IMG/VR virus record: IMGVR_UViG_3300032309_000977
Span: 1-61,021 of that record
Source of the DNA: a virus
Reading direction: 5' to 3' (one strand)
DNA: 61,021 nucleotides
Under the pieces are notes generated by a model that searched no databases, was not told the origin of the DNA, and was given only the letters and a program-made list of their open reading frames with translations. Shown here in pieces: positions 5,771-40,322 of this stretch. Both the position numbers and the translations under genes were made by a program. The number at the start of each line of letters is the position of its first letter. Positions within the stretch are counted from its first letter, which is position 1.

Positions 5771-7315
<1,545 letters not shown>

Positions 7316-7519: not shown

Positions 7520-8245
7520 ATGCCTCATGTAGTAAATTACTCATTAGACCGTGGCTTACCGTTTGAGCGCATTATTTCGGTAAAAAGTCGTCGTACTCAT
7601 AACCGTGTAGCCGTAACTGACCCGTCTGCTTTTATCAAACTTAGTACTACGCATAAAAAGCAAATTACTGCTGAAGTGCGTTCTGACGGTACAATTAAAC
7701 TATCTTTGGAAAAAGATGAGACTATTGACCTTCCAGCAGGCACCTATGACTACGACGTATGGGCTAACTGTTATGGAAATGACAATGTTGCTATATACCA
7801 ACCTGTATCTAGCGGTAAAATTAAAGTAAATACTTACGAAAACATTACTCCCTTGGAGGATACGGACTTTATGGAAATTCGCTACAAGCAACGTACCGAT
7901 TACCGTCGTACCTTCACTTGGAAAGATTCAGAAGGCGTTCTTATCTCTGTTACAGATGCCTTTATGCAAGCCAAAAACTCGGCAGGTACTACGGTCATTG
8001 ATTTGCGCTGGTACAGCACAGCCCCAAATGAATCAACGGTAGTTGCGCTAACTCCTGCAAGCAAGCGAGGTTACCTTGCTCCTGCTAATGGTGGTACTTT
8101 GGTAATGCACATTTCAGACAAAAATGATGTTGCAGCAGGCACGTATACGTTTGACCTATTTGTAAAAGACAGCGCTGGAGACTGGGATTGTTTAGTGCAG
8201 GGTGCTCTAGTCGTTGAAGCCGCCATTTCCGCACCTCCCGCATGA
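7520..8245 (+). CDS. Two-domain baseplate/fibre-adaptor-like protein
   Basis: A 241-residue protein made of two related beta domains, about residues 1-108 and 115-235. The second opens with QRTDYRRTFTWKDSEG, followed by a VTDAFMQAK strand, and closes with GTYTFDLFVKDSAGDWDCL. The first has the parallel AGTYDYDVWANC. This strand pattern (a 'DYRRTFTWKD' opening, a polar middle, 'aGtY.fDl' closing) is that of BppU-like N-terminal or upper-baseplate domains in phage fibres. Its stop overlaps the ATGA start of the next fibre gene. It is likely to attach fibres to the baseplate (inference). Confidence 0.65.
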   Translation: MPHVVNYSLDRGLPFERIISVKSRRTHNRVAVTDPSAFIKLSTTHKKQITAEVRSDGTIKLSLEKDETIDLPAGTYDYDVWANCYGNDNVAIYQPVSSGKIKVNTYENITPLEDTDFMEIRYKQRTDYRRTFTWKDSEGVLISVTDAFMQAKNSAGTTVIDLRWYSTAPNESTVVALTPASKRGYLAPANGGTLVMHISDKNDVAAGTYTFDLFVKDSAGDWDCLVQGALVVEAAISAPPA

Positions 8246-8670
8246 GTAAAACACTTACAGTCACCAAACCTAAAAATGTCACTGTTGTAACAAAGCCGTT
8301 AGCCGAAACGGTAACAACTCAAGAGACACCTAAAGACCTTGTAGAGTTCCACGACCCAGGTGTTGCTGGTCCTCCAAACGTCCTTAGTATTGGAACAGTC
8401 ACAGTTGCTAGCGAAGCAAGCGCCAGTATTACGGGTGTTGCCCCAAATCAAGTACTAAACCTTGTTTACCCAACGTCAGTACGACATATACACACACAAG
8501 GAACGGCTACAACTACATGGACAATTACCCATGCTTTGGGCGGTTACCCGTCTGTTTCTGTTGTTGACAGTGCAAAAACGGTTGTATTCGGAGAAGTCAC
8601 ATATACCAGCACCACACAAGTTGTAGTAAACTTTTCATCAGCGTTCTCAGGCTATGCCTACCTCACGTAA
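8242..8670 (+). CDS. Small fibre-tip-like protein
   Basis: A 142-residue protein in an ATGA overlap with the gene before. The first 60 residues are Thr/Val/Lys-rich and extended. Residues about 85-142 form a beta domain (TTWTITHALGGYPSVSVVD, then FGEVTYTSTTQVVVNFSSA) of the type found at the end of many phage fibres. The C-terminus of the 431-residue fibre that follows has a similar layout (THNFGTTDVKVEIYE, then GDVTRSNGNTLSIVL). Probably a fibre tip or accessory tip. Confidence 0.65.
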   Translation: MSKTLTVTKPKNVTVVTKPLAETVTTQETPKDLVEFHDPGVAGPPNVLSIGTVTVASEASASITGVAPNQVLNLVYPTSVRHIHTQGTATTTWTITHALGGYPSVSVVDSAKTVVFGEVTYTSTTQVVVNFSSAFSGYAYLT

Positions 8671-8679
8671 GGATTTTTA

Positions 8680-9975
8680 ATGGCTCAGAAGTTTCTAACT
8701 AATATTGACCTCAACCAGAATCAACTGGTCAACGCTAAATTTGAGGTTTTGGGCACTGACCCATCAAGTGGCAACTTTGAAGGCCGCCTTATCTATAACA
8801 GCACTGAAGACACCATCAAGGTGTACTCAGGTAGCGCATGGCGCAAAATGCTTCATGCCGTACAATCCAGTGGTACATACTCCACTGCTCTTAGCGTTAG
8901 TGAGTCTAACGGTACAATAAGCCTTACCTTAAACCTTGCTGACACTAGCAACGCTGGTCTACTTTCTAGCACTTTTTGGAACCTTCTTAATGGTGCTACT
9001 GATGCCGCTACAGTCAATACACTTGCCAAACGTGATGGTAACGGCAATATTAGTGTTGCTACTCCTACGGCTGACGGTCATGCCGCAACTAAAGGTTATG
9101 TAGATGCCGCTCGTTCAGGTCTTGATGTTAAGCAGTCAGTTCGTGCCGCTACAACTGCTGCTGGAACCCTTACTACTAGTTTTGTAAACGGGTCAGTTGT
9201 TGACACGAACGTAACACTTGCTACTGGTGACCGAATCCTTATTAAAGACCAAGTAACTGCTTCTGAAAATGGTATTTACACAGTTAACGCTACAGGAGCA
9301 CCAACTCGTGCAACTGACTTTGACTCTAACGCAGAAGTAACTCCTGGTGCATTTACCTTTGTTGAAGAAGGTACTGTCAACGCAGACAGTGGTTGGGTTC
9401 TCACAAACAATGGCACTGTAAACGTAGGCGTTACAGGGCTTACATTTGCACAATTCTCAGGTGCTGGTCAAATTACAGCAGGTGCTGGTCTTACTAAGAC
9501 TGGTAACACTATTGATGCGGTAGGTACTTCTAACCGCATTACTGTAAACGCTGACAGCATTGACATTGCATCTACTTATGTTGGTCAAACCAGCATTACT
9601 ACTCTGGGTACGGTTGCAACTGGTACGTGGAGCGCAACAACCATTGCTGTTAACAAGGGTGGTACAAACGCAACAACGGAGTCTGGTGCTCGTACTAACT
9701 TGGCTTCAGCAGCATCAGAAGCAACTGGACGCACAACAAGCACTCCTTCCCTTGCTCGTATTGCCAAGCAGGGTTGTGCTGCAAGTAGCACAGGTGTTTC
9801 AACCACCACAGTTACCCATAACTTTGGAACAACTGATGTAAAAGTGGAGATTTATGAAGTCTCAACTGGTGCTACGGTAATTGGAGATGTAACCCGTTCA
9901 AACGGCAACACGTTGTCTATCGTACTTTACGGCACTATTGCTGCTAACGATTACACTATCGTTGTAGTAGGTTAA
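8680..9975 (+). CDS. Tail fibre protein
   Basis: A 431-residue fibre protein with AAGG before ATG 8680. N-terminal MAQKFLTNIDLNQNQLVNA is a common fibre attachment opening. Middle motifs LAKRDGNGNISV and TADGHAATKGYVDAARSG, then KQSVRAATTA, GDRILIKDQVTASENGIYTV and QITAGAGLTKTGNTID, are familiar from cyanophage and other myovirus fibre repeats. The C-terminus is a small beta tip. The combination is confidently a long or short tail fibre; receptor specificity cannot be read. Confidence 0.85.
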   Translation: MAQKFLTNIDLNQNQLVNAKFEVLGTDPSSGNFEGRLIYNSTEDTIKVYSGSAWRKMLHAVQSSGTYSTALSVSESNGTISLTLNLADTSNAGLLSSTFWNLLNGATDAATVNTLAKRDGNGNISVATPTADGHAATKGYVDAARSGLDVKQSVRAATTAAGTLTTSFVNGSVVDTNVTLATGDRILIKDQVTASENGIYTVNATGAPTRATDFDSNAEVTPGAFTFVEEGTVNADSGWVLTNNGTVNVGVTGLTFAQFSGAGQITAGAGLTKTGNTIDAVGTSNRITVNADSIDIASTYVGQTSITTLGTVATGTWSATTIAVNKGGTNATTESGARTNLASAASEATGRTTSTPSLARIAKQGCAASSTGVSTTTVTHNFGTTDVKVEIYEVSTGATVIGDVTRSNGNTLSIVLYGTIAANDYTIVVVG

Positions 9976-11835: not shown

Positions 11836-12174
11836 ATGGCAATCGGAGACAGAAGCGAATCACGACTTGGTGGTCCAGTTCAATTAGGAACTACTACAAC
11901 TACTATTTGTACTGCCGCTACAGGTTATGCTGAAATCATTAAACAAATTATTATTTGTAATACAGACACGGTTGATCGTACTGTGACATTGGCTATTGGT
12001 TCAGCCGCAACAGCCGCAAACCGCCTCATGTCTGCGCTACCTATTGGCGCAAACGACATTATGGTGTTTGATACCGCTATTGTATTAGCCGCTGGTGAGA
12101 CATTACAAGGTTTGTCAGATACAGCCGCCAAAGTAAATGTCACAGTCGTTGGCTGGGAGAAACAAACAGCGTAA
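11836..12174 (+). CDS. Small virion-associated protein
   Basis: A 112-residue protein starting immediately after the stop of the large fibre, with AGGAG at its upstream edge. It is mostly beta: TTTTTICTAATGYAEIIKQI, then VDRTVTLAIGSA, ending in VVGWEKQTA. Its plan matches the small proteins at 3451 and 16515 (I-I-x-N-T strand, then LAAGETL). Such proteins occur singly or in sets in phage fibre clusters. I infer an accessory virion role. Its TAA overlaps the ATG of the glycine-rich protein downstream. Confidence 0.65.
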   Translation: MAIGDRSESRLGGPVQLGTTTTTICTAATGYAEIIKQIIICNTDTVDRTVTLAIGSAATAANRLMSALPIGANDIMVFDTAIVLAAGETLQGLSDTAAKVNVTVVGWEKQTA

Positions 12175-13001
12175 TGGGTATATCCGTTGGTAATAAAGGG
12201 TACACGTACACGTACACCACGATTAGAACTTTTCCCTATGGTGTAGGTAGTGGTGGAACATCATCTAACATAACTGTTGATGGTTTGTCGTATACGATGT
12301 TGACGTTTACCAGTACAGGAACTTTTACTGTTACAACTGCTGGGATTTTTGATTGCATGATTATGGGTGGGGGAGCATCAGGAAACGGACCTATTAACAC
12401 CAACGGTGGTGGAGGTGGCGGTGCAGGAGCAATCGTGATTTCTCAAGAAGCATACTTTGCTGTTGGGACATACGCTGTTGCCATTGGTGCTGGTGGTGGA
12501 AATATTTCCTATGTTGGAAAATATGCTAGTGGTCGTCCATTGGGTCCTAGTCAGGGTGGAAATGCAAACCTTGCGGCTGGTGCTCCAATTGTTAGTGGCT
12601 TTAGTGGTGGCAGTGGTATTGGCGCTGGACCAAATAACGGCTCTAACGGTGGCGGTGGTGGCGGTGGAATGGGCGGAGTAGGTGCAGTTCCATCACTAGA
12701 TAGGGGATACAACAACATGGTGAACGGCGGCAACGGTGGTGCAGGAATTGACTGGTCTGCATGGCGTGGTCAATCAGCAGGGACAACATTTTATGCCGCA
12801 GGTGGCGGTGGTGGAGGCGGTTACGGTTCAAGCATAACCGCCACAGGAGGAACAGGTGGTGGAGGTAGCGGAGCCAGGTATTATGGTGTTGCTGCAACCG
12901 CTGGAACAGCAAACACTGGAAGCGGTGGTGGCGGCGGTTCCGAAGCAGCAGGTGCTGCTCTTGGTGGTTCAGGTTTAGTATTAATTAGGTGGCAAGTATG
13001 A
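12174..13001 (+). CDS. Glycine-rich adhesin-like protein (copy 1)
   Basis: A 275-residue protein: a beta-rich N-terminus with LTFTSTGTFTVTTAGIFDCMIMGGG, then poly-Gly loops through residues about 70-265 and a closing GSGLVLIRWQV. This architecture (a strand ending in a GGGG core of many loops, closed by G.G(L/I)(V/I).IRW) is that of the glycine-rich domain in phage adhesins, in which a poly-Gly-II sandwich displays variable loops for receptor binding. The start lies in a TAATG overlap. The gene at 12998 is a tandem paralogue. The loops can vary without changing the core. Confidence 0.8.
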   Translation: MGISVGNKGYTYTYTTIRTFPYGVGSGGTSSNITVDGLSYTMLTFTSTGTFTVTTAGIFDCMIMGGGASGNGPINTNGGGGGGAGAIVISQEAYFAVGTYAVAIGAGGGNISYVGKYASGRPLGPSQGGNANLAAGAPIVSGFSGGSGIGAGPNNGSNGGGGGGGMGGVGAVPSLDRGYNNMVNGGNGGAGIDWSAWRGQSAGTTFYAAGGGGGGGYGSSITATGGTGGGGSGARYYGVAATAGTANTGSGGGGGSEAAGAALGGSGLVLIRWQV

Positions 13002-14789: not shown

Positions 14790-15170
14790 ATGGCACATTT
14801 TGCAGAACTTGGCGAAGACAATGTTGTATTGCGAGTCATTGTTGTATCTAACGATGATTGTAAAGACTCAGAGGGCACCGAATCAGAAGCCGTAGGCGCT
14901 GAATTCTGTCGCAATCTTTTGGGTGGTACATGGAAACAGACCTCATACAACGGCAACATGCGTGCTCGTTATGCAGGTATTGGTTACACATACCGATCAG
15001 ACTTGAACGCATTTATTGCTCCAAAGCCTTACCCATCATGGTCACTTGATACAGAAACCACTGAATGGGAAGCCCCAGTTGCCCGTCCTAACGTGGCTCG
15101 CCCACATGAAGCATCTTACGTATGGAACGAAACAACACAAACTTGGGATGAAGTAGAACTTCCTGCCTAA
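14790..15170 (+). CDS. Conserved phage virion/fibre-region protein
   Basis: A 126-residue protein with TAGGAG at 14775-14780. The opening MAHFAELGEDNVVLRVIVVS, the middle YNGNMRARYAGIGYTY, and IAPKPYPSW are highly recognisable from many marine and freshwater phages, where the protein sits beside fibre genes. No experimental function is known to me. The end (YVWNETTQTWDEVEL) is a small W-rich strand pair. Its stop overlaps the start of the third glycine-rich protein. Confidence 0.8.
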   Translation: MAHFAELGEDNVVLRVIVVSNDDCKDSEGTESEAVGAEFCRNLLGGTWKQTSYNGNMRARYAGIGYTYRSDLNAFIAPKPYPSWSLDTETTEWEAPVARPNVARPHEASYVWNETTQTWDEVELPA

Positions 15171-16240
15171 TGGACCCACTTGACTTTGAACTAAAGTTTG
15201 TAGAGAACAAGGATAAATATAACCTTGGTGCTGTAACAGACGGTTCAATCACCACGGCAAAACTAGCCGATGGTGCGGTGACTACTGCAAAGATTGCGGC
15301 TGGTGCTGGTGGTATGGCTGTAGTTACGTCTACTACTAGACCAGCGTCACCAACAGTTGGTCAGATGATTTTTGAAACTGATACGAATTATGTTCGTGTA
15401 TATACCGCAGCAGGCTGGTCTGTTGGTATGCGTCAAAGTGCCTCGTTTGTAGTGACCTACCTTGTAGTTGGCGGTGGCGGTGGCGGTGGAAACACAATGG
15501 GTGGAGGTGGTGGTGCTGGTGGTTATTTAACAAGTACAGCAACACTTACATCTGGGACTACATATACCGTAACAGTTGGTGCAGGTGGCACTGGAACACC
15601 AAATAGAAACGTGGCGGGAGGACTGGGCGGAAACTCCATTATTCAAGGTGTTGTAACAGCACTTGGAGGTGGAGGTGGTGGAAGTTGGGGAGTTGGTTCA
15701 GCAGGGCAAACTGGTGGTAGCGGTGGTGGTGCCTGTCAAGGAAGTTATTACAGTGGTACGTCACCAGGTGGTGCAGGTACTGCTGGTCAAGGCTTCGCAG
15801 GAGCAAACTCAACTGCCTACAACACATATCACCGTGGAGGTGGAGGTGGTGGTGCCGCAGAAGCAGGAAATACAGATGCCGCCAGTGAAGGTGGAGATGG
15901 TCTAACAAGCACTATTACAGGTGTTTCTACTACATATGCTGGTGGTGGTGGTGGCGGTAGCATGGGAGCAGCAGCAGCGGGTGGAGCAGGCGGTGGTGGT
16001 GCAAGTACAGGTAACGCAACTCTTGCAACTGCTGGTACCACAAACACTGGAGGTGGCGGCGGTGGAGGTGGCTACAACGGTGGGGACGGTCAAGGAGCCG
16101 CTGGAGGTTCTGGAATTGTCGTAATCCGATATGCAACCGCTGATGGGGTTGGTAAAACAATTAGTGGTGGTACAAAAACCACAGATGGAACAGATACAAT
16201 CCATACATTTACAACATCTGGTTCTCTTTCAATTGCATAA
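15170..16240 (+). CDS. Glycine-rich adhesin-like fibre protein (copy 3)
   Basis: A 356-residue protein starting in a TAATG overlap. It has a short shaft (ITTAKLADGAVTTAKIAAGA), then a TRPASPTVGQMIFETDTNY pre-tip module, then a long glycine-rich region at residues about 95-320 that opens with VVTYLVVGGGGGGG and closes with GSGIVVIRYA. The final TISGGTKTTDG, then TIHTFTTSGSLSI, is a typical end for these adhesins. Compared with the two copies at 12-14 kb it is a full fibre with its own shaft. Probable receptor-binding protein. Confidence 0.82.
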   Translation: MDPLDFELKFVENKDKYNLGAVTDGSITTAKLADGAVTTAKIAAGAGGMAVVTSTTRPASPTVGQMIFETDTNYVRVYTAAGWSVGMRQSASFVVTYLVVGGGGGGGNTMGGGGGAGGYLTSTATLTSGTTYTVTVGAGGTGTPNRNVAGGLGGNSIIQGVVTALGGGGGGSWGVGSAGQTGGSGGGACQGSYYSGTSPGGAGTAGQGFAGANSTAYNTYHRGGGGGGAAEAGNTDAASEGGDGLTSTITGVSTTYAGGGGGGSMGAAAAGGAGGGGASTGNATLATAGTTNTGGGGGGGGYNGGDGQGAAGGSGIVVIRYATADGVGKTISGGTKTTDGTDTIHTFTTSGSLSIA

Positions 16241-19072: not shown

Positions 19073-19290
19073 TGTTCTGGAAAAAGAAAGAAGAAAAACC
19101 AGCAACTCCAGCAAGAATTGCTCGTTTAGACACCCCATCACTGATGTCTTGGTTTGATACAGGGATTATGGAACTTGGTTCATCCTTTGATAAATGGCGT
19201 TATCACAACGGGGATATCAAAGAAGTGGGAGAATTAGTAACCATATTAAACAATTTGTATACAGAACTAGAGAGAAGAAACGATGCTTGA
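19072..19290 (+). CDS. Hypothetical small protein before the terminase
   Basis: A 72-residue protein; ATG 19072 in a TAATG overlap is preferred to in-frame TTG 19066. A basic N-terminus (MFWKKKEEKPATPARIARL) is followed by helices (LMSWFDTGIMELGSS, then GELVTILNNLYTELERRN). Its position immediately before the large terminase is where a small terminase subunit is often encoded, but it is much shorter than usual and no HTH is clear, so that role is only a possibility. Overlaps the terminase start by 8 bases. Confidence 0.6.
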   Translation: MFWKKKEEKPATPARIARLDTPSLMSWFDTGIMELGSSFDKWRYHNGDIKEVGELVTILNNLYTELERRNDA

Positions 19291-20842
19291 AATTGAAGAC
19301 GAGGGTCTATTAGACATTGAAGAATTAGCAGAGGAACTTGATGAGACCTCTGCTGAGTTCATTGATGGGCTAGTAAATAGACTCATTGTTTTCACTGAAG
19401 AATTCTGTGACGTAGAATTCTTTCCCTACCAGTTACCTATTGCATACAGAATGATTGAGTCAATTGTTTTGGGAGATGGTGACGAACTTACCATTATTGC
19501 AACTCGTCAGTCTGGTAAGTCAGAAGTAATGTCAGCAGTAATGGCATCCATGATGGTTATTCTTCCAAAACTTGCTCCCGTATATCCAACATGGTTATCT
19601 AAGTTTGAGAAAGGTTTTTGGTGCGGAGTGTTTGCCCCAACCGAAGACCAAGCAGATACAGTGTTTAGCCGTATCGTCAGCAAACTTACAAGTGACCATG
19701 CCCTTGAGTTTTTGCTTGACCCAGAAATTGACGATAAAGCAGCATCGGGTGGTACTCGTGGTAAGGGTCGCATCATCACTTTAAAGCACGCAGGTTCCCT
19801 TTGCCGTATGCAAACCTGTAACCCTAAAGCAAAGATTGAATCAAAAACTTATCACTTTGTCATGATTGACGAGGCTCAAGAAGCCGACGAAACCATGATT
19901 GCTAAGTCAATTAAACCAATGTTGGCGTTTAACAACGGAAGTATTTGCCTGACTGGTACGGCTAATCGTAATAAATCTTACTTCTATAAGATGATTCAAT
20001 TCAACAAGCGTCGTGCTGTAAACGGTGGAAAACGACATCGCCAAGCCCATTTTGAGTACGACCACAAAATGGCATCTAAATACAACCCTAACTATGCAAA
20101 ATTTATTGCTAAAGAAAAAATGCGTATCGGTGAAGATTCAGACGAATTCCAAATGTCGTACTGTAATAAATGGATTCTTGAAAAGGGTATGTTTATTACC
20201 GAAGAAAGAATGGAACGGTTGTATGACCAATCCATGCCACTTGTAAAACAATGGTGGCGTACTCAGGTAGTTGTAGGAATTGACGTAGCAAGACAAACCG
20301 ACTCTACAGTAGTAACCGTTGTGTGGGTTGATTGGGACCACCCAGACCCATTTGGGTTTTACGAACACCGTATTCTCAACTGGTTGGAAATTAATAACCA
20401 AGAATGGGAAAGTCAATATTTTGAAATCATTGACTTCCTACGAAATTATGAAGTTCTTCGTGTGGGCGTAGACTCACAGGGTGTTGGTGGTGCTGTAGCA
20501 GAACGACTCCAATTACTGATGCCTGATATAGATGTACTTGCTGTGTCTTCTGACGCCAAAGCGCAACACGAGCGCTGGGTTCACCTAACAGAACTAATTC
20601 AACGTGAACAGTTAATTATTCCAGCCCACTCTAAGGCTCGCCGTACCAGAACTTGGAAACGATTTAATCAACAAATGTCAGACCTTGAAAAGGTGTACAA
20701 AGGTCCTTACCTTTTAGCATCCGCACCAGAAGAAAAAGGTGCGTTTGACGACTATCCAGACTCCCTTGCTTTGGCTTGTTCCATGACAGTTTTTGAGACA
20801 ATGCCAGAGGTCCAAGTGGGTATGTCACCATTTTTCCGATAA
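19283..20842 (+). CDS. terL: Terminase large subunit
   Basis: A 519-residue DNA-packaging ATPase/nuclease. It has an adenine-binding/Q-like stretch (FFPYQLPIAYRM), a Walker-A-type ATRQSGKS near residue 75, Walker B HFVMIDEAQEAD near residue 195, and LTGTANRNKS as the coupling motif. The RNase-H-like nuclease begins at VVGIDVARQTDSTVV near residue 330 and contains VGVDSQGVGG; the late Asp pair is in AFDDYPDSLALA. Length is normal for the family. It cuts concatemers and powers filling of the prohead through the portal at 25953. Confidence 0.93.
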   Translation: MLEIEDEGLLDIEELAEELDETSAEFIDGLVNRLIVFTEEFCDVEFFPYQLPIAYRMIESIVLGDGDELTIIATRQSGKSEVMSAVMASMMVILPKLAPVYPTWLSKFEKGFWCGVFAPTEDQADTVFSRIVSKLTSDHALEFLLDPEIDDKAASGGTRGKGRIITLKHAGSLCRMQTCNPKAKIESKTYHFVMIDEAQEADETMIAKSIKPMLAFNNGSICLTGTANRNKSYFYKMIQFNKRRAVNGGKRHRQAHFEYDHKMASKYNPNYAKFIAKEKMRIGEDSDEFQMSYCNKWILEKGMFITEERMERLYDQSMPLVKQWWRTQVVVGIDVARQTDSTVVTVVWVDWDHPDPFGFYEHRILNWLEINNQEWESQYFEIIDFLRNYEVLRVGVDSQGVGGAVAERLQLLMPDIDVLAVSSDAKAQHERWVHLTELIQREQLIIPAHSKARRTRTWKRFNQQMSDLEKVYKGPYLLASAPEEKGAFDDYPDSLALACSMTVFETMPEVQVGMSPFFR

Positions 20843-22722: not shown

Positions 22723-22967
22723 AACAACTTCAAAATATTCTATTACGAATTCTTGCAACTTTTGCAGCGTCTGGTTTAGGTGTAATTGGTGCAGGAGCCA
22801 TCGCTGGCGTTCCTTTGTGGAAAGCCATGTTTATGGCTGGTATTGCTGGGGTCGCATTTGTAGTAGAAGGTTTGTCTAGGGCATTCCTTGACGATGGTAA
22901 ACTTAGTCTTGACGAAATCAACGCCGTGTTCAACAAAGTTGACGGGAAGGATAAAGAAGAAAAATGA
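22719..22967 (+). CDS. Probable holin
   Basis: An 82-residue protein with two hydrophobic segments (ILATFAASGLGVIGAGAIAG and MFMAGIAGVAFVVEGL) joined by a short turn, then a charged tail (KVDGKDKEEK). The tail length, two segments and position directly before an M15 peptidase endolysin gene (overlap of 4 bases) fit a class II holin. I call it by context and shape; there is no sequence signature unique to the family. Confidence 0.7.
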   Translation: MKQLQNILLRILATFAASGLGVIGAGAIAGVPLWKAMFMAGIAGVAFVVEGLSRAFLDDGKLSLDEINAVFNKVDGKDKEEK

Positions 22968-23515
22968 GCAAAGTTGCTTGGGATTATATTGTTCCTGTAA
23001 AAATGCCTCTTGACTTACAAGGGGTACAACCTGGAAAACTTCCAGATAAGTTGTTGAAGCCTGCCGTAGGCGGTGGAAGGTTACACCATCTTGCCGCAGA
23101 CGCATGGGCTGCTATGGTGGCTAAGGCTAAATCTGAGGGTGTTGAACTAAAACCGACTTCCGCAGGCGACACATATAGAGAATACGAGTTGCAAAAAAAA
23201 GGATTCCTCCAACGCTACAGCCTTGAGGATACGGGAACTGGTAAGACCAAGACCTTTGAAGGCAAGACGTGGTACTTGAAGAAGGGCATGGCGACCTTGG
23301 CTACCCCAGGAAAATCGCAGCATAACCTTGGCTTGGCGGTTGACGTGCATTCAGCAGCCGAACCTAAGCGTTTGAACTGGCTCATTGCTAATGTTAAATT
23401 GTTTGGCTTCTCATGGGAAGTTGTCCCTGAAGAACCTTGGCACTTGCGCTATGTAGCAGGTAACAATGTTCCCCCAGCAGTGGTAGAGTTTACGCAGCAA
23501 CAGAAAGCAGTGTAG
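22964..23515 (+). CDS. Endolysin, M15/VanY D-Ala-D-Ala-type peptidase
   Basis: A 183-residue single-domain peptidase. The metal site shows as SQHNLGLAVDVH (SxHxxGxAxD; His and Asp bind zinc) near residues 117-128 and EPWHLRYV near residue 160 with the third His. Upstream GDTYREYELQKKGFLQRY is typical of the fold. M15 enzymes cleave the peptide stems or cross-links of peptidoglycan. No cell-wall binding domain is present. The preceding genes are holin-like, forming a compact lysis set. The tape measure protein carries a second M15 domain with very similar motifs. Confidence 0.88.
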   Translation: MSKVAWDYIVPVKMPLDLQGVQPGKLPDKLLKPAVGGGRLHHLAADAWAAMVAKAKSEGVELKPTSAGDTYREYELQKKGFLQRYSLEDTGTGKTKTFEGKTWYLKKGMATLATPGKSQHNLGLAVDVHSAAEPKRLNWLIANVKLFGFSWEVVPEEPWHLRYVAGNNVPPAVVEFTQQQKAV

Positions 23516-23542: not shown

Positions 23543-23827
23543 TTGTCTAAAGAATCGTTAATAGAAGACTTACAAAACCCATTACGAAGTGTAAAAACAA
23601 CTCCTTGCAAATTAGGCAGGATACTGTTAGACATCTCTGATGCGGAACGTGAGCAATTAAATAAATCAATTGAGACTATCCGTAACGATAGCGCACAAGC
23701 CAAAAACAAGGTCTACAGTTCCGTATGGCTTTCTAAGGTGTTGCGTAGTCACGGATATGGCATTAGTGTAAGTACTGTACAACGACATGTAAACAAGGAG
23801 TGTTTCTGTGACCAGTCTGATAAATGA
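23543..23827 (+). CDS. Hypothetical protein with possible HTH
   Basis: A 94-residue protein starting at TTG 23543, chosen because GGAG (23533-23536) lies 6 bases upstream; TTG 23531 is also in frame. It is charged and helical, with VWLSKVLRSHGYGISVSTVQRHVN near the end resembling a helix-turn-helix of small site-specific or transcription regulators. The preceding TACAAT at 23525-23530 could be a -10 box. The gene overlaps the metallophosphoesterase start by 20 bases. A regulator is possible, not shown. Confidence 0.6.
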   Translation: MSKESLIEDLQNPLRSVKTTPCKLGRILLDISDAEREQLNKSIETIRNDSAQAKNKVYSSVWLSKVLRSHGYGISVSTVQRHVNKECFCDQSDK

Positions 23828-24962
23828 TTTAAGTGCGCCTGCACAAGATAAGACCAAATTGCTTGGCAAATTGGTTGAAATGCTTGAAAGTAAAAACATT
23901 GATATCAACGAAATTGGTGATATCAAACGTGTAAAACTTTACCAAGCACTTACTAAAGACTCTGAGGGTGAAGCACAAATTCATGACCTTGCTGCAATTC
24001 AGTTTTCTCCCAAGTGGGAAACTGGTCCTGAGTGGCCTGTAGTCCAACAAGGTCCAGCAATTAAATTGCCTGCATTTAAAGCAAAGGCTAAGAAAGCAAC
24101 GACCTTTAAGACTTGTTTAGTTCCACCAGATATTCAAATTGGTTATTACCGAAATCGTGAAGGGCAACTAGAACCTACACATGATGAAAAGGCATTAGAG
24201 ATTTGCCTAAAGGTTGCTAAAGATTTACAACCAGAAACCATTGTTCTTGTAGGTGACAACCTTGACTTTCCTGAGATGGGTAAGTATGTGACATACCCTG
24301 CATATGCACAAACTACTCAAGCATCTATTGACCGTGCAACCTTGTTCTGCGCTCAACTTCGTGCTGCTGCTCCTGAAGCAAAGATTATCTGGCTTGCAGG
24401 AAACCATGAAGAACGAATGCCTAAGTACCTTGTGCAAAATGCGGCTGCTGCTTATGGTCTTCGTAAAGGTAATACTCCAGACTCATGGCCTGTACTTTCA
24501 GTTCCATACCTTTGCCGTATGGACGATTTTGGAATTGAATATCGTCCAGGTTATCCAGCATCTGACTATTGGGTCAATGAGAAGTTGCGAATCATTCACG
24601 GTGACCGTGTAAAGTCGTCAGGCTCAACTGCACATGTTTATCTCAACAATGAGAAGACAAGTGTTATCTATGGGCATATTCACCGCATTGAAACGGCATT
24701 CAAAACTCGTGAAGACTTTGATGGTCCTCGCACTATCATGGCGGCTTCACCTGGTTGCCTTGCCCGAATTGATGGAGCCATTCCGTCTACTAAAGGCGGC
24801 GTAGACCTTGACGGACGCCCATTGACTCGCCATGAAAATTGGCAACAAGGGTTGGGTGTTGTTCGTTACGAAGACGATGGCGCTCACCGCTTCTCATATG
24901 ACGTAATTCCCATCTATAATGGCTGGGCTATTTATCAGGGCACTGAGTACTCAGCCGAATAG
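23808..24962 (+). CDS. Calcineurin-like metallophosphoesterase
   Basis: A 384-residue protein starting at GTG 23808 with AAGGAG at 23795-23800. After a helical N-terminal region (about 105 residues) the catalytic domain shows PDIQIGYY (D-x-H/Q site), VLVGDNLDFPEM (GD-x2-D), WLAGNHEERMP (GNHE), IIHGDRV (H) and YGHIHRIE (GH-x-H). These are the metal ligands of the calcineurin-like phosphoesterase superfamily. The substrate is unknown; possibilities include nucleic acids, nucleotides or protein phosphates. It directly precedes the Ntn hydrolase gene in the same operon. Confidence 0.85.
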   Translation: MTSLINDLSAPAQDKTKLLGKLVEMLESKNIDINEIGDIKRVKLYQALTKDSEGEAQIHDLAAIQFSPKWETGPEWPVVQQGPAIKLPAFKAKAKKATTFKTCLVPPDIQIGYYRNREGQLEPTHDEKALEICLKVAKDLQPETIVLVGDNLDFPEMGKYVTYPAYAQTTQASIDRATLFCAQLRAAAPEAKIIWLAGNHEERMPKYLVQNAAAAYGLRKGNTPDSWPVLSVPYLCRMDDFGIEYRPGYPASDYWVNEKLRIIHGDRVKSSGSTAHVYLNNEKTSVIYGHIHRIETAFKTREDFDGPRTIMAASPGCLARIDGAIPSTKGGVDLDGRPLTRHENWQQGLGVVRYEDDGAHRFSYDVIPIYNGWAIYQGTEYSAE

Positions 24963-24964
24963 CC

Positions 24965-25600
24965 ATGACTACCATTGTGGGTGTGCAGGGAGATGGATTC
25001 GCAGTAATCTGCGTAGATTCACGTATCTCTACCATGTTCGCTGGTGGTCTATCCCAGATAAGCACACTCAAAGAAGGGTCTAGCAAGGTATCAACTAATG
25101 GAAAATATTTACTCGGTGCTGCTGGAGATGTACGGGCCATCAACATTCTCCATCATGTGTTCCAACCGCCAACACCACCGCCAAACCTTAAAGGGAAGAA
25201 ACTTGACCAGTTCTTTACGGCAAAGTTTATACCAGCACTCCGTGAATGCTTTGATGCACAAGGCTACTCAATCCCAGACCTCAACGAAAACAAAGAGCAC
25301 ATCGCAGAACAAGGCTCAAGCATCCTCGTAGTAATCAACGGTACTATTTACATAGTTGATGGGGATTACTCTTGGGCTTCTGATGCCAGTGGTATTTACA
25401 CCATAGGGTCTGGTTCTGCCTATGCGCTGGGTGCATTGCAAGTCTTAGCAAACAATAAAAAACTGACTGTTCAGCAGTCAAAAACCCTTGCATTAAAGGC
25501 TCTCACTATCGCTGCCAAATATGACCCCCATACTGGCGCACCATACCAAACATTCATTCAAGAGTGTGAGGCAAACAACAAAAGGCGCAAGCCTGTATAA
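24965..25600 (+). CDS. HslV/proteasome beta-like Ntn hydrolase
   Basis: A 211-residue protein beginning M-T-T-I-V, so removal of Met exposes an N-terminal Thr nucleophile with no propeptide, as in HslV. Counting from that Thr, Asp falls at position 17 (CVDSRIS), and LKEGSSKV fits the catalytic Lys site (HslV: MKGNARKV). LLGAAGD, then YTIGSGSAYALGALQVL and ALKALTIAAKYDPHT follow the HslV order of strands and helices. No HslU-like unfoldase is visible in the window. Position between phosphoesterase and portal suggests a role in head assembly, possibly prohead maturation; a role in host takeover is also open. Confidence 0.75.
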   Translation: MTTIVGVQGDGFAVICVDSRISTMFAGGLSQISTLKEGSSKVSTNGKYLLGAAGDVRAINILHHVFQPPTPPPNLKGKKLDQFFTAKFIPALRECFDAQGYSIPDLNENKEHIAEQGSSILVVINGTIYIVDGDYSWASDASGIYTIGSGSAYALGALQVLANNKKLTVQQSKTLALKALTIAAKYDPHTGAPYQTFIQECEANNKRRKPV

Positions 25601-25626: not shown

Positions 25627-25914
25627 ATGTCAGACCTTAAGAAAAATCACGCAGATGCAGCAATCAAGGGTGCAGCCCTTGGTGTATTGACCTACGTAGG
25701 CACTCAGTTCAACCTTTCGGCAGAACTCATTGCCTTGCTAGTTCCAGTAGTTGCTACCGCTTTGTCGGTAGTTTCCACCAAAATTGGTGACAAAAACACT
25801 GCTCTATTGTTGAAGGTTGCTACTCAGGCAATTGACTTTGCCCCTGTCAAAAAGGATGTTGCCCCTGCAAAGAAGGCTCCAGCCAAGAAAACAACAGCAG
25901 CAAAAAAGAAGTAA
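25627..25914 (+). CDS. Small membrane-anchored protein with Lys/Ala-rich tail
   Basis: A 95-residue protein. Residues 10-50 hold hydrophobic segments (GAALGVLTYVG and LIALLVPVVATALSVVST); the tail is Lys/Ala/Pro-rich (KKAPAKKTTAAKKK), like the disordered arms of histone H1-type proteins. This layout suits a small membrane protein or holin with a basic tail that could bind DNA or phospholipid. It precedes the portal gene and is followed by a hairpin terminator that overlaps its stop. Function unknown. Confidence 0.65.
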   Translation: MSDLKKNHADAAIKGAALGVLTYVGTQFNLSAELIALLVPVVATALSVVSTKIGDKNTALLLKVATQAIDFAPVKKDVAPAKKAPAKKTTAAKKK

Positions 25915-25952: not shown

Positions 25953-27635
25953 ATGCCGATTGACTTCTGGTCTCCCTCATATAGAGCAGCATCTAGTGAC
26001 CTTACTGTATCTATCTCTCCGCTTGGCTTAGTAGAACTTGCCGACGAAGAATTTGAAGTCCATGGTCCACGTCTAAACCGATATGCTTCGGCTTGGGCGT
26101 GGTACCTAGGACATCACTGGTCGTACCGCCGTGAGATGGGCGAATCACAGTTCTACATGAATTATGTCCGAACTATGTCGGACTACATCACTAACTTTTG
26201 CTTTGGTAAAGGTATTCAATTCAAAGTACCTGAGCAAAACGGTGCAATCATTCCACACCTTCTCCACAAAGTATGGGAAGGGCACAACAATAAACACTAT
26301 GTTTTGTGGGAATTAGGACAACTTGCTTCTGTAACTGGTGATGCTTTTGTTAAGGTTGCCTATGAGGAACCGTATCAAGACGCTTCGGGAATCATCAACG
26401 AGGGTCGTATTCGCATTATCCCGTTGAACCCAGCGCACTGTTTCCCTGAATATCATCCACATGACCGTGACAGAATTATTAGATTTAAACTTAAGTATCG
26501 TTTCTGGGGTACATCTCCAGAAGGTACTCGTCAGGTATACACCTTTACAGAAATCCTTACAGAGGAAATGGTTCAACAGTACATCAACGATGAATTGATT
26601 GACCAATACCCTAATGCTCTTGGGACTATCCCAATCGTGCATATTCCAAACGCAACGATTTCTTCATCGCCTTGGGGTCAGTCAGATATCTGGGACATCA
26701 TTCCTCTTAACCGTGAACTTAATGAGAAGATGATTGAAGTTTCTGACATCATCAACTATCACGCCGCACCTGTAACGATTATTACAGGCGCTAAGGCTTC
26801 ACAATTAGAGCGTGGACCTAAGAAAGTTTGGGCTGGTCTTCCAAAAGACGCTAGTGTATTTAACCTTGAATCTCGTGGAGAGATGGCTGGTGCTTTAGAG
26901 TATGTCAACTTCCTAAAGCGCACAATGCACGAGATTACTGGAGTACCTGAGACTGCTCTAGGACAAGCACAACCAGTGTCTAACACTTCTGGTGTTGCTT
27001 TGGCTATTCAGTACCAGCCAATGATGAATCGTTTCATGATGAAAAAGATTCATTTTACAAAGGGTCTTGAGCGTCTAAACGAAATCATTATTCGTACTGC
27101 GGCTATATTCCGACCAGAAATGCTGATGTATGACCCAAGTCAAGCAGCCCAAATGGAACGGGATAACCTCCCACAACTAGACCCAATGGACCCTTTGACT
27201 TATAAAACAGAGGTTCATTGGCCTGAACCGTTGCCTGTTGATGTGCTTATCAAACTTAACGAAGTACAGTCAAAGATGGCATTGGGTCTGGAATCCAAGC
27301 GTGGCGCTCTTAGAATCCTCGGTGAGGAGTTCCCGAACGAGAAGATGTCTGAAATCTTTGAAGAACTTATGGACGACGCTATAGACCAAGGAGCCTTGGA
27401 CATGCTCCGCTCGCAGATTGGTCAGGCGGTAATGATGGCAACAGGAATGCTCCCAACAGAGGGAGGTCCACAGCCAGCAAGCGCAGGTGGTTCTGATGTA
27501 TCATCTGCACAGGGTTCTTCAGGACCAATGCCAGGAACGGCAGTAAATCCTGTAGAAGCCGATTTGATGAATCAATTGGTTAGCAGGACCTACGGTGCTC
27601 GTTTTGCACAACGTAGAGTCCCAGACGAAGAATAA
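25953..27635 (+). CDS. Portal protein
   Basis: A 560-residue protein with the fold pattern of SPP1-type portals: YVRTMSDYITNFCFGKGIQF in the wing, ELGQLASVTGDAFVKVAY, then PLNPAHCFPEYHPHDRDRI and VHIPNA. The stem/clip area is SDIWDIIPLNRELNEKM with the crown helix EFVNFLKR-type region (EYVNFLKRTMHEITG, VPETALG). The last 60 residues are disordered and Gly/Ser/Pro-rich. It forms the dodecamer at the head vertex and is the docking site for the terminase encoded at 19283. AAAGGG lies before ATG 25953. Confidence 0.9.
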   Translation: MPIDFWSPSYRAASSDLTVSISPLGLVELADEEFEVHGPRLNRYASAWAWYLGHHWSYRREMGESQFYMNYVRTMSDYITNFCFGKGIQFKVPEQNGAIIPHLLHKVWEGHNNKHYVLWELGQLASVTGDAFVKVAYEEPYQDASGIINEGRIRIIPLNPAHCFPEYHPHDRDRIIRFKLKYRFWGTSPEGTRQVYTFTEILTEEMVQQYINDELIDQYPNALGTIPIVHIPNATISSSPWGQSDIWDIIPLNRELNEKMIEVSDIINYHAAPVTIITGAKASQLERGPKKVWAGLPKDASVFNLESRGEMAGALEYVNFLKRTMHEITGVPETALGQAQPVSNTSGVALAIQYQPMMNRFMMKKIHFTKGLERLNEIIIRTAAIFRPEMLMYDPSQAAQMERDNLPQLDPMDPLTYKTEVHWPEPLPVDVLIKLNEVQSKMALGLESKRGALRILGEEFPNEKMSEIFEELMDDAIDQGALDMLRSQIGQAVMMATGMLPTEGGPQPASAGGSDVSSAQGSSGPMPGTAVNPVEADLMNQLVSRTYGARFAQRRVPDEE

Positions 27636-27685: not shown

Positions 27686-28480
27686 ATGAGTAAGAAGAAT
27701 ACCCCTGAAGGGGATGTAATCCTATTTGAAGAAGCAGCACAGGAAGTAAGTAACCCAGTGCCTGCTACAAAAGAAACTCCAACATTCACACCAGATGATG
27801 TTGAGAAAATCCGTCAGCAAGAAAAAGACAAGATGTACAAGCGTCTTGAAGATGCTGACAACCGTGTAAAGAGCATGGAACAACAAATGGCTGTTATTGC
27901 CGCAGAGCGTGAAGAAGCCATTAAAAAGGCTGAAGAACAGGCTCGTAAAGAGGCTGAAATCATTCGTCAGCGTGAAGTTGAAGAACTCTCTGCTAAAGAA
28001 CTTTTGATTAAGCGTGAAGATGAATTCAATCAAAAAATAAATGCTATGCAAAATGATTGGCAATCTCGCCTAGATGCTATTGAAGCAGAGCGTCAGGCTT
28101 CTGCTGCTTTGCTTGAAAAAGAGCGTGAGCATCAGCAATTAATCTCTTACCTACAGCGCCGTGTGCAGGAAGAACAGGAATCAATCATTCCTGAACTTCT
28201 TGACCTCGTTGCTGGAAATACGGTAGAAGAAATTGAAAACTCAATCAGCGTACTTCGTGAACGAAGTTCTGCTATTCTGGAATCAATCCAACAAGCGTCT
28301 TCGCAACAGCGTGGAAACTTGAGGGGGGCGCTGGTAACAGCACCCGCCGTTGGGCCAATGGAAACTCAATCGGAGCAGCAAACGTTGACAGCGGAAGATA
28401 TCCGCAATATGTCCATGGAACAGTACCAAAAAATGCGTGACAGGCTCTTAAACGCACGTTCTTCTAGGGGTCGTTTCTAA
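27686..28480 (+). CDS. Capsid scaffold/assembly protein
   Basis: A 264-residue protein located between the portal and major capsid genes. It is a long acidic coiled coil (DKMYKRLEDADNRVKSMEQQ, then EEQARKEAEIIRQREVEEL) with a disordered Ser/Gln-rich end and a short C-terminal helix (MSMEQYQKMRDRLLNA). That combination (acidic start, coiled coil, short basic end) is typical of phage scaffolds, which direct shell assembly and are then removed. No protease domain is visible, so removal would need another enzyme; the Ntn hydrolase upstream is a candidate (inference). Confidence 0.8.
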   Translation: MSKKNTPEGDVILFEEAAQEVSNPVPATKETPTFTPDDVEKIRQQEKDKMYKRLEDADNRVKSMEQQMAVIAAEREEAIKKAEEQARKEAEIIRQREVEELSAKELLIKREDEFNQKINAMQNDWQSRLDAIEAERQASAALLEKEREHQQLISYLQRRVQEEQESIIPELLDLVAGNTVEEIENSISVLRERSSAILESIQQASSQQRGNLRGALVTAPAVGPMETQSEQQTLTAEDIRNMSMEQYQKMRDRLLNARSSRGRF

Positions 28481-28549: not shown

Positions 28550-29638
28550 ATGGCATATCCAGGCCCAGCAGGTGGTTCTATCACTGGTGCAGACCTCTCG
28601 TCAATCACGACGACTGGCTACTCAAGTGATTCAACACTTTCACCTGCAATTCAAACAATCTGGTCCAAGGAAATCTTGTTCCAGGCAATGCCCGTTCTGC
28701 GCTTTGAGCAGTTCGCAGTAAAGAAGACCGAACTTGGTGTTATGCCAGGTTTGACCATCAACTTCATGCGTTACAACAACCTTGATGTTGCTTCCAACGG
28801 TTCAGAACTTGTTGAAGGTGTCCGCATGGACCCAACAGCATTGTCGGCATCGCAAATCCAAATCACAGTGAAGGAACAGGGTAAGTCGGTTGCAGTAACT
28901 GAACTTCTCTTGAACGCTTCGTTTGACGACGTTATGGCATCGTCAAGCCGTTTGCTTGGTCGTCACATGGCACAGTCCATGGACGTACAGGCACGCAACA
29001 CCTTGTACGCCGCAGGCGTTCCATTCGGTGGTGGTGCAGCAGTTGCTCCGTCGGTAGTCTTTGGTCGCAAGACCAACGGTTCTACCCGTGGTTCAATCGC
29101 TCCTTACGAGTACTCGGCAGCAGGTTCGGCTTCGGCTCCTGGCTACCTCTCACCAGCAACCATTAAGGATGCTGTTGAAGTACTTGCAGGTCAGAACATC
29201 CCACGCCTTGGCGACACCTACGTTTGCTTCGTTCACCCATCACAAAGCCGTTCGCTCCGTGACTGGCCTGAATTTATTGAAGTAACGAAGTATGCCGCTC
29301 CTGGCAACTTCATGCTCGGTGAAATTGGTCGCATCTACGACGTAGTATTCATTGAAACCACCCAAGTTCTTAAGGGTGGCACAAGCATTGTTGACTTGGC
29401 TCCAGGAACCGCTGGTTACCAAGACCCAACCGCAACCTCATACAGCGCAATTATGATCGGTGACAACGCATTTGGTCAGGCAATCGCCTTGCCAGTTGAA
29501 CTCCGTGACGGTGGCGTCATTGACTTTGGTCGTGAGCATGGTCTTGCTTGGTACGCAATCTGGGGCTTCGGCGTAATTACCGCAGAATCCCGTGTGATTT
29601 TGAACACCAAGGGTGGAGCAATTAACGACACCTTCTAA
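28550..29638 (+). CDS. Major capsid protein, N4-gp56-like
   Basis: A 362-residue protein with CGGAGG before ATG 28550. TIWSKEILFQAMPVLRFEQF, then KTELGVMPGLTINFMRYNNL and LLLNASFDDVM, are typical of the N4-gp56 family major capsid proteins, which have the HK97 shell fold. The family is seen in podoviruses, siphoviruses and several myoviruses. Codons are much richer in C-ending forms (TTC, AAC, CGC) than those of neighbouring genes, as for a very highly expressed gene. It has its own probable promoter and a strong terminator behind it. No cleaved propeptide (delta domain) is visible. Confidence 0.92.
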   Translation: MAYPGPAGGSITGADLSSITTTGYSSDSTLSPAIQTIWSKEILFQAMPVLRFEQFAVKKTELGVMPGLTINFMRYNNLDVASNGSELVEGVRMDPTALSASQIQITVKEQGKSVAVTELLLNASFDDVMASSSRLLGRHMAQSMDVQARNTLYAAGVPFGGGAAVAPSVVFGRKTNGSTRGSIAPYEYSAAGSASAPGYLSPATIKDAVEVLAGQNIPRLGDTYVCFVHPSQSRSLRDWPEFIEVTKYAAPGNFMLGEIGRIYDVVFIETTQVLKGGTSIVDLAPGTAGYQDPTATSYSAIMIGDNAFGQAIALPVELRDGGVIDFGREHGLAWYAIWGFGVITAESRVILNTKGGAINDTF

Positions 29639-37571: not shown

Positions 37572-40322
37572 ATGGCAGAAGATTCCCTATTAGGTTTAGG
37601 CGCAGGAACACCCCCAGGTGGGGCATCTAGCGCTGTAGGTAGTTCTACTGTTAACTCACGCCTAAACGTTGATTTAAAAATTCTAAAAGGTCTTAATGAT
37701 GAACTTAAGACCATGGGTACAACTGCCAAAAGCATTGAAAAGAACTTTGATTCTTTAATCAAAAAGACTAAAGAACTTACTAAAGAACTTCAAGCCGCTG
37801 GTAAGGCTGGACGAAATCTAAACGGAAACACGTCTAACTCATACATTCCTAAAAACGGCATGCCTCCAGCAGCCGATTTGCACTCACTGCAAAAACAACA
37901 ACTAGGAATGTTCCAGCAATTCCAAGGTAGCCAAATTGCTATGGCTCAATCCCTTATGGGTGGAGCAGGCGGTATGGGAGGCGGTGGGGGCGGTGCTGGT
38001 GGCCCATGGGCAATGGTTGCCCAAAAGATTGTAGACGGTATACAAAAAGCAGGAGCAATGATTGATGCACGGGTTGACCGTGGTCGTCAGTATGCACTTC
38101 CAGCAGACCGTTTATCTGTACTACTACAGCAACAGAATGGTATCTCACAAAACCAGGTGATGAACCAAATGCGTATGCCATTGACCAATTACAGGTTGGG
38201 CGCTGATGGTATTAATGAATTGCTTGCACTGCAATCACGCACTGGATTAAAAGCAAATGCTCAAATGGGCGCTGCAACAGAAGCACTAAGAACAGTTAGT
38301 GGTTACGGTTATAGCACTGCTGATATTGCCAATATGACTGAATCTATGGCTGGCCCTAACACGGCTAACCGCATGTTCATGATGATGGGCACTGGTATCT
38401 ATGGCATTGGCGGTAAGCAAAAAGACCCAATGCAAGTTATTAAAGATACTGTAAATCGTTTAGGACTTACTAGTAAAGACATCGTTGACAGCGGCTTGCA
38501 AAAAGGTTCAGTTGCTCGTCAAAAATTAGAGATGGCTGGGTTTGATGAAAACATGCAAACCATGGTTCTCCAATACGCCCAGTCTAACCTTAATTATCGG
38601 GACAAAGGTGGGAAGGGTATGTATGACCCTTCTAAAAAGGCTGACCGTGAGCGCATGGGGATTGAAAATAACTATGCAACTCAAGTTGAAGAAACACAAC
38701 GTGTAGAAGGAAAACGTGAGGAAAACTTCTATAAGCGTCAGGCTGATAATTTTTCACAGTTAGAAAAGAACATGCAAAAAGTTACCAAACTATTTGGTGA
38801 ACTTGAAGATTCTCTTTCTACAATTATTGGAGCAAAAACAAGTACTCGTGGCTTTGGAAAGATATTTAATACCCTTGGTGATTTAGGTATTCCAGGAATG
38901 AACTCTCTTGGAAACTTCATTGGTGACCCTGCTGGAGCGAGTGCCGAGACTTCACGAATTGCTAGTACTAAACCTACATCTGCTCCTAAGTATGGTGCAA
39001 TGTTAGAAAAACTTAAACCACAAATGCGTGAGCCTTTGGAAAGAATGCTTAAAGATGCTGGTGGTCGTGTAGGTATTGGGCAAACTTATCGCAGCGCAGA
39101 TGACCAAAAAAAGATGTTCTTAGAACGGTATTACAAAACCGATAAGAAAACAGGAACATTTTGGAATGGTTCATACTGGGAAAAGAAGCCAGGAGTTGCA
39201 GCAGCCACTCCTCCAGGAATGTCTATGCACGAAATTGGACTTGCAGCAGACCTTACTGGTGACCTTGAGTGGGTTAAAAAGAATGCTGGTCGTTATGGTT
39301 TGGAGTCATTTGATTTCATGGGAGAACCATGGCACATTCAACTAAAGGGTATACCAAGGAGTCGTAGTCAGTATGAAAAGGCTGGCGCACCTTTGGGAAC
39401 CAATAACAGCGGAGACACTGCTTACAGCCCAACTACTACTGGAACTACTAAAGAAGTTGGACCATATGGTCAAACATCTGTTACGGGTGGAGCAAGTAAT
39501 GAGATTGGACTGCGAGCAAACTCCATGGGTGCAATGTCTATGGGAGCAGCAATGGCTACCTTTGCTTCCAGCAGAATTGTTTATGGAGAAAATGGAAATA
39601 CTTCAGTAGGTTCTGCTGGTGGTTCTGGAGCAACGGTATCGGCTCAAAGTGCTGCTGGTGTTGTTGGTAATAACGTAAAGGCAACTGATGAAGCAGGGTT
39701 ACGTTCATACTATGGAAATTTGTATAAAAACCTAAGCCGAAACAATATTGGTAAGGAAGGTGTACGAAGTCTATTAAGTGGTTTAACTGTAAGAGGAAGA
39801 CGACTTACTCCAGAAGAAATTAATGGATTTGTACAGATTGCAGGACGTGAGTCTGGATATAACTCCAACGCATACAATCCAACAGTAAGAACTGATGATA
39901 TTTCTTTTGGATTGTTCCAATTAAATATGGACCCTAGCGCTGGTGGAACAGACGCTTTTAGGAAGTTTCCATGGCTTAAAGGAAACTACGACAAACTTTG
40001 GGACCCAAAAACTAACGTAGACGTTGCTGCTGGTTGGAAAATGGCAGATGGCGTAGGTCGTGGAAATATCTTTTACCATTGGGGTGGTACTCCTGAAAAC
40101 CCTATGGCAGGTAGTGCTGGGTACAAACAAGGTGACCCTGCGTATCCATCTTCTCCTGGTCCACTTCCCCGTAGTGGTGGTAGTACTAATGTTATTACTG
40201 TTGCTCCCGTAATCCATATCAACACAACTGGAAGCACCAGTATGGATATTAACCAAATGGCTAAGGAAGTTTCGCATATGCTTGAAAAAGAAATTCACTT
40301 AACAATGATGAGGGCTAAGTAA
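37572..40322 (+). CDS. Tape measure protein with M15 peptidase and lytic transglycosylase domains
   Basis: A 916-residue protein with AAAGGA before ATG 37572. Residues 30-70 are coiled coil; residues 120-330 carry the helical and Gly-rich tape measure core (QNGISQNQVMNQMRMPLTNY). Residues about 470-600 are a M15/VanY domain: GIGQTYRSADDQKKMFLERY, MSMHEIGLAADL (zinc His/Asp) and EPWHIQL (zinc His). Residues about 715-850 are an SLT-type transglycosylase, with Glu in AGRESGYNSNAYNP and SFGLFQLNM. Both domains cut peptidoglycan. The tape measure sets tail length and is delivered early, so the two domains are likely to open the cell wall at infection. Confidence 0.92.
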   Translation: MAEDSLLGLGAGTPPGGASSAVGSSTVNSRLNVDLKILKGLNDELKTMGTTAKSIEKNFDSLIKKTKELTKELQAAGKAGRNLNGNTSNSYIPKNGMPPAADLHSLQKQQLGMFQQFQGSQIAMAQSLMGGAGGMGGGGGGAGGPWAMVAQKIVDGIQKAGAMIDARVDRGRQYALPADRLSVLLQQQNGISQNQVMNQMRMPLTNYRLGADGINELLALQSRTGLKANAQMGAATEALRTVSGYGYSTADIANMTESMAGPNTANRMFMMMGTGIYGIGGKQKDPMQVIKDTVNRLGLTSKDIVDSGLQKGSVARQKLEMAGFDENMQTMVLQYAQSNLNYRDKGGKGMYDPSKKADRERMGIENNYATQVEETQRVEGKREENFYKRQADNFSQLEKNMQKVTKLFGELEDSLSTIIGAKTSTRGFGKIFNTLGDLGIPGMNSLGNFIGDPAGASAETSRIASTKPTSAPKYGAMLEKLKPQMREPLERMLKDAGGRVGIGQTYRSADDQKKMFLERYYKTDKKTGTFWNGSYWEKKPGVAAATPPGMSMHEIGLAADLTGDLEWVKKNAGRYGLESFDFMGEPWHIQLKGIPRSRSQYEKAGAPLGTNNSGDTAYSPTTTGTTKEVGPYGQTSVTGGASNEIGLRANSMGAMSMGAAMATFASSRIVYGENGNTSVGSAGGSGATVSAQSAAGVVGNNVKATDEAGLRSYYGNLYKNLSRNNIGKEGVRSLLSGLTVRGRRLTPEEINGFVQIAGRESGYNSNAYNPTVRTDDISFGLFQLNMDPSAGGTDAFRKFPWLKGNYDKLWDPKTNVDVAAGWKMADGVGRGNIFYHWGGTPENPMAGSAGYKQGDPAYPSSPGPLPRSGGSTNVITVAPVIHINTTGSTSMDINQMAKEVSHMLEKEIHLTMMRAK

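Follow-up and report, generated by a model that had tools for sequence, protein, structure and literature searches.

The window, i.e. the whole 61,021-nt stretch of freshwater phage DNA analyzed here (IMG/VR record IMGVR_UViG_3300032309_000977), carries upstream of its portal gene a gene for a proteasome-fold Ntn hydrolase (Table 1). We favor, with rather better than even confidence, the view that its product is an accessory N-terminal-threonine peptidase, probably similar to the beta-proteobacterial proteasome homolog (BPH), that has no unfoldase of its own and acts, in the infected cell, on proteins of the host or the phage. In such a mechanism, removal of Met1 would expose Thr2 as the nucleophile, and Asp18 and Lys41, whose conservation and place in the fold are described below, would activate it, with Gly51 in the oxyanion position. 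The subunits would assemble into a BPH-like ring particle, in which proteins of host or phage, either unfolded or specific ones, would be cut with no dedicated phage unfoldase. Comparative genomics points to an accessory infection gene in a variable slot beside the head genes, and not to a head-maturation protease.

The peptidase is probably an optional infection tool rather than a head-building protease, because close relatives appear to build the same head without the gene; action on host proteins is the better remaining option than the removal of head proteins. Phages that have one capsid and differ in this gene offer a ready comparison for the role of a viral proteasome homolog, and they show that, in this case, lying next to the portal says little about a role in the head.

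Table 1. Features of the window around the peptidase gene
Feature	Coordinates	Strand	Basis
Terminase large subunit	19283..20842	+	PHROG search
VanY-type D-Ala-D-Ala carboxypeptidase domain (endolysin-like)	22964..23515	+	PF02557
Calcineurin-like metallophosphoesterase, commonest upstream neighbor, 2-nt gap	23808..24962	+	PHROG 20266, PF00149
Proteasome-like (HslV/BPH-type) Ntn hydrolase, 211 aa, MTT start, no propeptide	24965..25600	+	Pfam, PHROG, PDB sequence match, AlphaFold2 model
Thr2 codon, mature Thr1, nucleophile by homology	24968..24970	+	T in 48/48
Asp18 codon, Asp17 equivalent	25016..25018	+	48/48 relatives; 22/22 wider set
Lys41 codon, Lys33 equivalent	25085..25087	+	48/48 relatives; 22/22 wider set
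Gly51 codon, Gly47 (oxyanion hole) equivalent	25115..25117	+	G in 47/48
Loop following helix H2, residues 99-118, at the pore-loop position	25259..25318	+	alignment, DSSP of model
95-aa protein with hydrophobic segment, downstream neighbor	25627..25914	+	no PHROG or Pfam match
Portal protein	25953..27635	+	PHROG 64, 1.2e-43
Scaffold candidate	27686..28480	+	position and composition only
Major capsid protein	28550..29638	+	PHROG 1357, 8.2e-62

A proteasome-fold Ntn hydrolase

The reading frame starts with ATG 2 nt past the stop codon of the metallophosphoesterase gene, and a strong ribosome site for the gene itself is not apparent. The product matched Pfam family PF00227 (Proteasome; 31.1 bits, E 2.4e-7, vs. 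a cut-off of 22.4), the sole Pfam family above cut-off, and PHROG 1040 ("peptidase HslV family") at E 2.4e-24; in a PDB sequence search the top match was BPH (5ovs). A PADLOC search returned no match for the peptidase or for the metallophosphoesterase. The protein is a proteasome-fold Ntn hydrolase, with a family match far above chance. The original prediction, made from the sequence alone, of an HslV/proteasome-like enzyme is borne out by Pfam, PHROG, the AlphaFold2 fold and a Thr1-Asp17-Lys33-type site, and the features on which it drew (the MTTIV start, Asp18 as mature Asp17, LKEGSSKV with Lys41, GSGSAYALGAL and ALTIAAK) are all present in the frame. The proposed HMM search against HslV and T1 peptidase families gave a split result: PF00227 was above its cut-off, but the equivalog models were far below theirs, with 28.5 vs. 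157.75 bits for TIGR03692 and 30.1 vs. 137 bits for NF003964 (HslV), and 18.9 vs. 191.9 bits for TIGR03690 (20S proteasome beta, NCBIfam). By its sequence the protein is not HslV itself, since it scores far under the HslV cut-offs and no HslU-type unfoldase was found in the window.

A monomer model was built with AlphaFold2 from 48 window-type sequences (mean pLDDT 86.8, pTM 0.83). Foldseek against the PDB placed BPH (5ovt) first (E 9.4e-12) and HslV next; with VIA-align, the Z score was 19.4 for BPH (5ovs_A, 2.8 Å across 178 residues), 18.9 for an archaeal 20S chain and 18.2 for HslV, rows within 1 Z of each other being tied. Residue 2 of the model superposes on residue 1 of BPH 5ovs, the archaeal 20S chain and HslV. 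A fold without the alpha-beta-beta-alpha core, or the loss of the Thr1/Lys site, had been named as evidence against the assignment; the core is present in the model, and Thr2 and Lys41 are found in all 48 sequences. Asp187 is also invariant among the 48, and position 149 is Ser or Thr. In a wider set of 22 proteins, position 2 is Thr in 21 and Ser in Tenacibaculum phage pT24. Methionine removal, an ordinary processing step that would expose Thr2, is compatible with the MTT start. That the protein is an inactive structural or decoy subunit is hardly credible, given catalytic residues retained in 48 of 48 relatives under strong purifying selection (median dN/dS 0.029 for 448 pairs, and 0.06–0.16 in the four measurable pairs involving the window gene).

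A non-proteolytic Ntn enzyme, e.g. a connectase-like ligase or an amidohydrolase, is quite improbable. The proteasome-like family does include the ligase connectase, but connectase lacks helices H1 and H2, according to Fuchs et al. (2021; PMC8665760), and both helices (residues 56–65 and 77–98) are in the predicted structure of the peptidase, whose nearest folds are peptidases. The loop that follows H2, at the pore-loop position, is 16–20 residues long with a net charge of −1 to −4 in the 48 window-type sequences. The pore loop is described as short in the unfoldase-regulated HslV, and as long and acidic in BPH, which has no known unfoldase (PMC8665760). The long acidic loop, as in BPH, is the main structural hint that the peptidase may act independently of an unfoldase, and self-compartmentalization is plausible by analogy with the nearest fold, that of BPH.

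Likeness to BPH extends from fold and sequence match to the absence of a propeptide and this loop; the identity, however, is 21–22%, the gene here belongs to a phage, and the tetradecameric double ring is that of BPH, the window protein having been modeled as a monomer. HslV shares the fold, the catalytic layout and the MTTIV start, but the window protein stays far below the HslV equivalog cut-offs, no HslU was found in the window record, and the sequences differ (about 20–26% identity in structure alignments). Phage and host proteasome homologs have been published as PPH, AAH and CPH (Fuchs, Alva and Lupas, 2021; PMC8665760). These are likewise group I proteasome-like proteins in phages, and the authors too found no AAA+ partner. 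Identity with PPH was rejected: PPH is described there as ~140 aa long and devoid of H2, whereas the window protein has 211 aa and H2 at residues 77–98. As for AAH, a group of alpha-proteobacterial and actinobacterial homologs, the six plasmid proteins placed on our tree fall in another clade (support 99/98); five come from rhizobia or Streptomyces and one from Paraburkholderia, and they are putative AAH members by taxonomy only.

Phage proteasome homologs are already published and database-annotated, and the one described here adds a new clade to this known kind. As far as our searches show, what is new is the actinophage clade, its either/or slot and the set of capsid-matched phages with and without the gene, all described below. 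The survey by Fuchs et al. (2021) states that no Actinobacteria-specific phage encoding AAH was found, and no genomic context that hinted at function (PMC8665760). HslV without HslU is mentioned for a Salmonella jumbo phage (PMC7823757). No experimental test of what a phage HslV-like protein does was found in the literature searched, where subscription journals are thinly covered (including the available portions of PMC7823757, PMC10611076, PMC11841896 and PMC7552054).

Phages of the same capsid type with and without the gene

A head-maturation role, in which a self-compartmentalized peptidase would digest the scaffold or trim other proteins of the head, had been suggested for the window protein. 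We consider it very improbable. In its favor are the place of the gene between the terminase and portal genes, the presence of a portal gene downstream of it in 60 of the 88 loci with enough flank, and the failure to find S78, S49 and ClpP proteases in the window and its relatives. With the capsid protein of the window as query, at least 600 relatives were obtained, of which the best 80 were retained; 33 of these were left out because the stretch ahead of the portal was too short or because the portal was not matched, and 47 remained. These 47 phages have the same portal-scaffold-capsid block, and the peptidase gene is present in 29 and absent from 18. When the complete records of the 18 minus loci were searched with a profile, no peptidase copy was recovered (positive controls, two of two found), although a missing copy could lie outside these records, since IMG/VR records may be fragments and only 3 of the 18 exceed 80 kb.

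The lengths of the portal, scaffold and capsid proteins are alike in the plus and minus groups, as are many capsid N-termini. Presence or absence of the peptidase changed at least four times on the portal tree and on the capsid tree by a quick method, and two changes on the portal tree are forced by starred branches. One phage without the gene (L252) sits inside a starred group of carriers, and its portal-scaffold-capsid DNA is 81% identical over 4.3 kb to that of the carrier L246. With 18 of 47 same-capsid phages lacking the gene and having a similar scaffold and capsid, it is very unlikely that assembly of this head requires the peptidase. Related phages, moreover, have the peptidase gene away from the head genes. 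The suggested removal of scaffold or other head proteins is therefore not upheld, and the plus/minus comparison led us to reject the head-protease role.

The window and ten IMG/VR relatives yielded no S78 protease, and neither S49 nor ClpP was found in 11 records, three of which are gene-minus (G011, G021 and G025; these three were outside the S78 search). The control of the S77 search was silent, and S77 is not part of these negatives. A weak S78 match lies within an 869-aa frame of Actinomycetia phage DSL-LC01. The earlier remark that no standard prohead protease is visible holds in the window for S78, S49 and ClpP, and phages of this lineage apparently manage with no recognized head protease of these families, whether the peptidase is present or not. 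Membership of the peptidase among the prohead proteases was rejected: it is not obligate with the capsid lineage, and it has no S78, S49 or ClpP family match. The scaffold gene noted at the outset stands in part: the frame is in scaffold position, but it has no significant family (no Pfam match; best PHROG match at E 0.087, to an uncharacterized family).

The variable slot, its neighbors and candidate unfoldases

The metallophosphoesterase gene is directly upstream of the peptidase gene in 104 of 148 loci and separated from it by one small ORF in 11, and the gap between the two measures −4 to +6 nt in 104 of these 115. Among 88 well-flanked IMG/VR or MAG loci, 60 have the metallophosphoesterase upstream and the portal downstream, 9 have the metallophosphoesterase without the portal and 19 have neither, by a neighbor clustering that would miss strongly diverged portals. 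Co-expression of the peptidase with the head genes is likely in the window's lineage, given its steady placement between metallophosphoesterase and portal. Portal-free arrangements comprise endolysin, metallophosphoesterase, peptidase and WhiB in this order (L172), HAD and endonuclease V-like genes around the peptidase (L140), and thymidylate synthase, ferredoxin and endonuclease V around it (L143). In the annotated cultured phages examined, the peptidase gene lies among nucleotide-metabolism, tRNA or hypothetical genes. As side observations, L143 has a cytochrome P450 gene (6901–8133; PF00067, 1.9e-26) and then the ferredoxin gene (8015–8782) adjoining the peptidase gene, and in two lineages that are distant from each other a WhiB gene lies immediately 3′ of the peptidase gene (L172, 6646–6963; L085, 20715–20954).

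In same-capsid phages without the peptidase, an unrelated protein of ~100 aa, termed s98, lies between metallophosphoesterase and portal, where sister phages have the peptidase. It is present in 13 of the 18 minus loci (L205, L206, L207, L215, L218, L223, L230, L238, L239, L240, L242, L252 and L259), i.e. in 13 of the 14 minus loci that bear the metallophosphoesterase, and in 0 of the 29 plus loci; it was found in none of 150 peptidase loci. The metallophosphoesterase is detectable in 43 of the 47 same-capsid loci, and these have the peptidase only (29), s98 only (13) or neither (1, L257). Related rows inflate these counts, yet more than one change of state is seen on the portal tree. The predicted fold of s98 is small and beta-rich (model pLDDT 79.7). 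A PDB search with this model gave no significant match (best E 0.27, with Sm-like barrels among the weak ones), and s98 had no Pfam or PADLOC match; one copy weakly matched PHROG 25889. It is conceivable, if doubtful, that actinophages widely use an unfoldase-independent, ring-forming mini-proteasome for host takeover or counter-defense, which would alternate in the metallophosphoesterase-portal slot with a ~100-aa protein meeting the same need by different means.

The original observation that no unfoldase gene is visible holds for the window: no AAA_2 was found in its record, where the only AAA match is a DnaC/IstB-like protein of 215 aa. Likewise, AAA_2 was not found in seven relatives of 85–98 kb; all these records may be fragments. 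These absences weigh against the alternative that the protein is the peptidase half of an ATP-dependent protease, whose AAA+ unfoldase would come from the host or, for the largest relatives, from the phage itself. We judge this unlikely, even though HslV is the second-closest fold and a ClpB/A-like ATPase occurs in five of five peptidase-bearing records of at least 169 kb, two of which also have a PAN/FtsH-like ATPase. Clp-like ATPases were found at 28 loci, 18 of which had their records searched; among the seven records of at least 140 kb, four have the peptidase and three lack it. A Clp-like ATPase as dedicated, strict partner was rejected on this count (both genes in just four of seven). 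The PAN-like ATPase lies about 9 kb from the peptidase gene, and no HbYX-type end was found on it. An unfoldase partner supplied by the host, or encoded by the largest phages, is conceivable; a peptidase working without an unfoldase of its own is the reading we prefer. As a separate observation, peptidase-bearing records of ~170–216 kb have a single-ring ClpB/A-like ATPase (L082, 1171–2598, minus strand; L095, 667–2271, plus strand), two of them also with a PAN/FtsH-like one.

Distribution, probable host and other genes of the window

Relatives of the peptidase are encoded in at least 567 IMG/VR stretches by an alignment-based scan, 80 of which were retained; an earlier scan had found 257, 80 of which were likewise retained. 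A first scan of bacterial and archaeal genomes recovered no relatives, and among 84,980 such genomes a single contig was found at the sensitivity of a pattern scan; it belongs to a MAG (L179), and its metallophosphoesterase context is like that of phages. Plasmid homologs exist, with 26–31% identity. In INPHARED, 19 records have relatives, and the best is that of DSL-LC01, whose "ATP-dependent protease subunit HslV" (OQ999401) is 48.8% identical over 97%; its gene, however, is followed by WhiB, with the portal gene about 10 kb further on.

The peptidase belongs, by its phylogeny, to a virus-rich actinophage clade. The window-type proteins and that of DSL-LC01 form one clade (98/95), which Microbacterium phage Pumpernickel and Arthrobacter phage Pitbull adjoin (80/85). 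The separate clade (99/98) that contains the rhizobial, Streptomyces and Paraburkholderia plasmid proteins also includes Vibrio, Geobacillus, Moorella and Psychrobacter phages. BPH forms a very long branch (7.27) and HslV also a long one, and the positions of both are unsure. WhiB is an actinobacterial and actinophage protein. It was found in 18 of 20 records tested and not in the window record, a 61-kb fragment, or in G009, and to judge from these relatives the host is very likely an actinobacterium.

Three further observations concern the window. A 514-aa protein (5771–7315) matches a GatB/YqeY-like domain with 34 bits against a cut-off of 27, which is unusual in a phage. A 916-aa protein (37572–40322) has VanY and weak SLT matches, the VanY match being the second besides that upstream of the metallophosphoesterase. 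Two glycine-rich proteins (12174–13001 and 15170–16240) both match Pfam PF21722.
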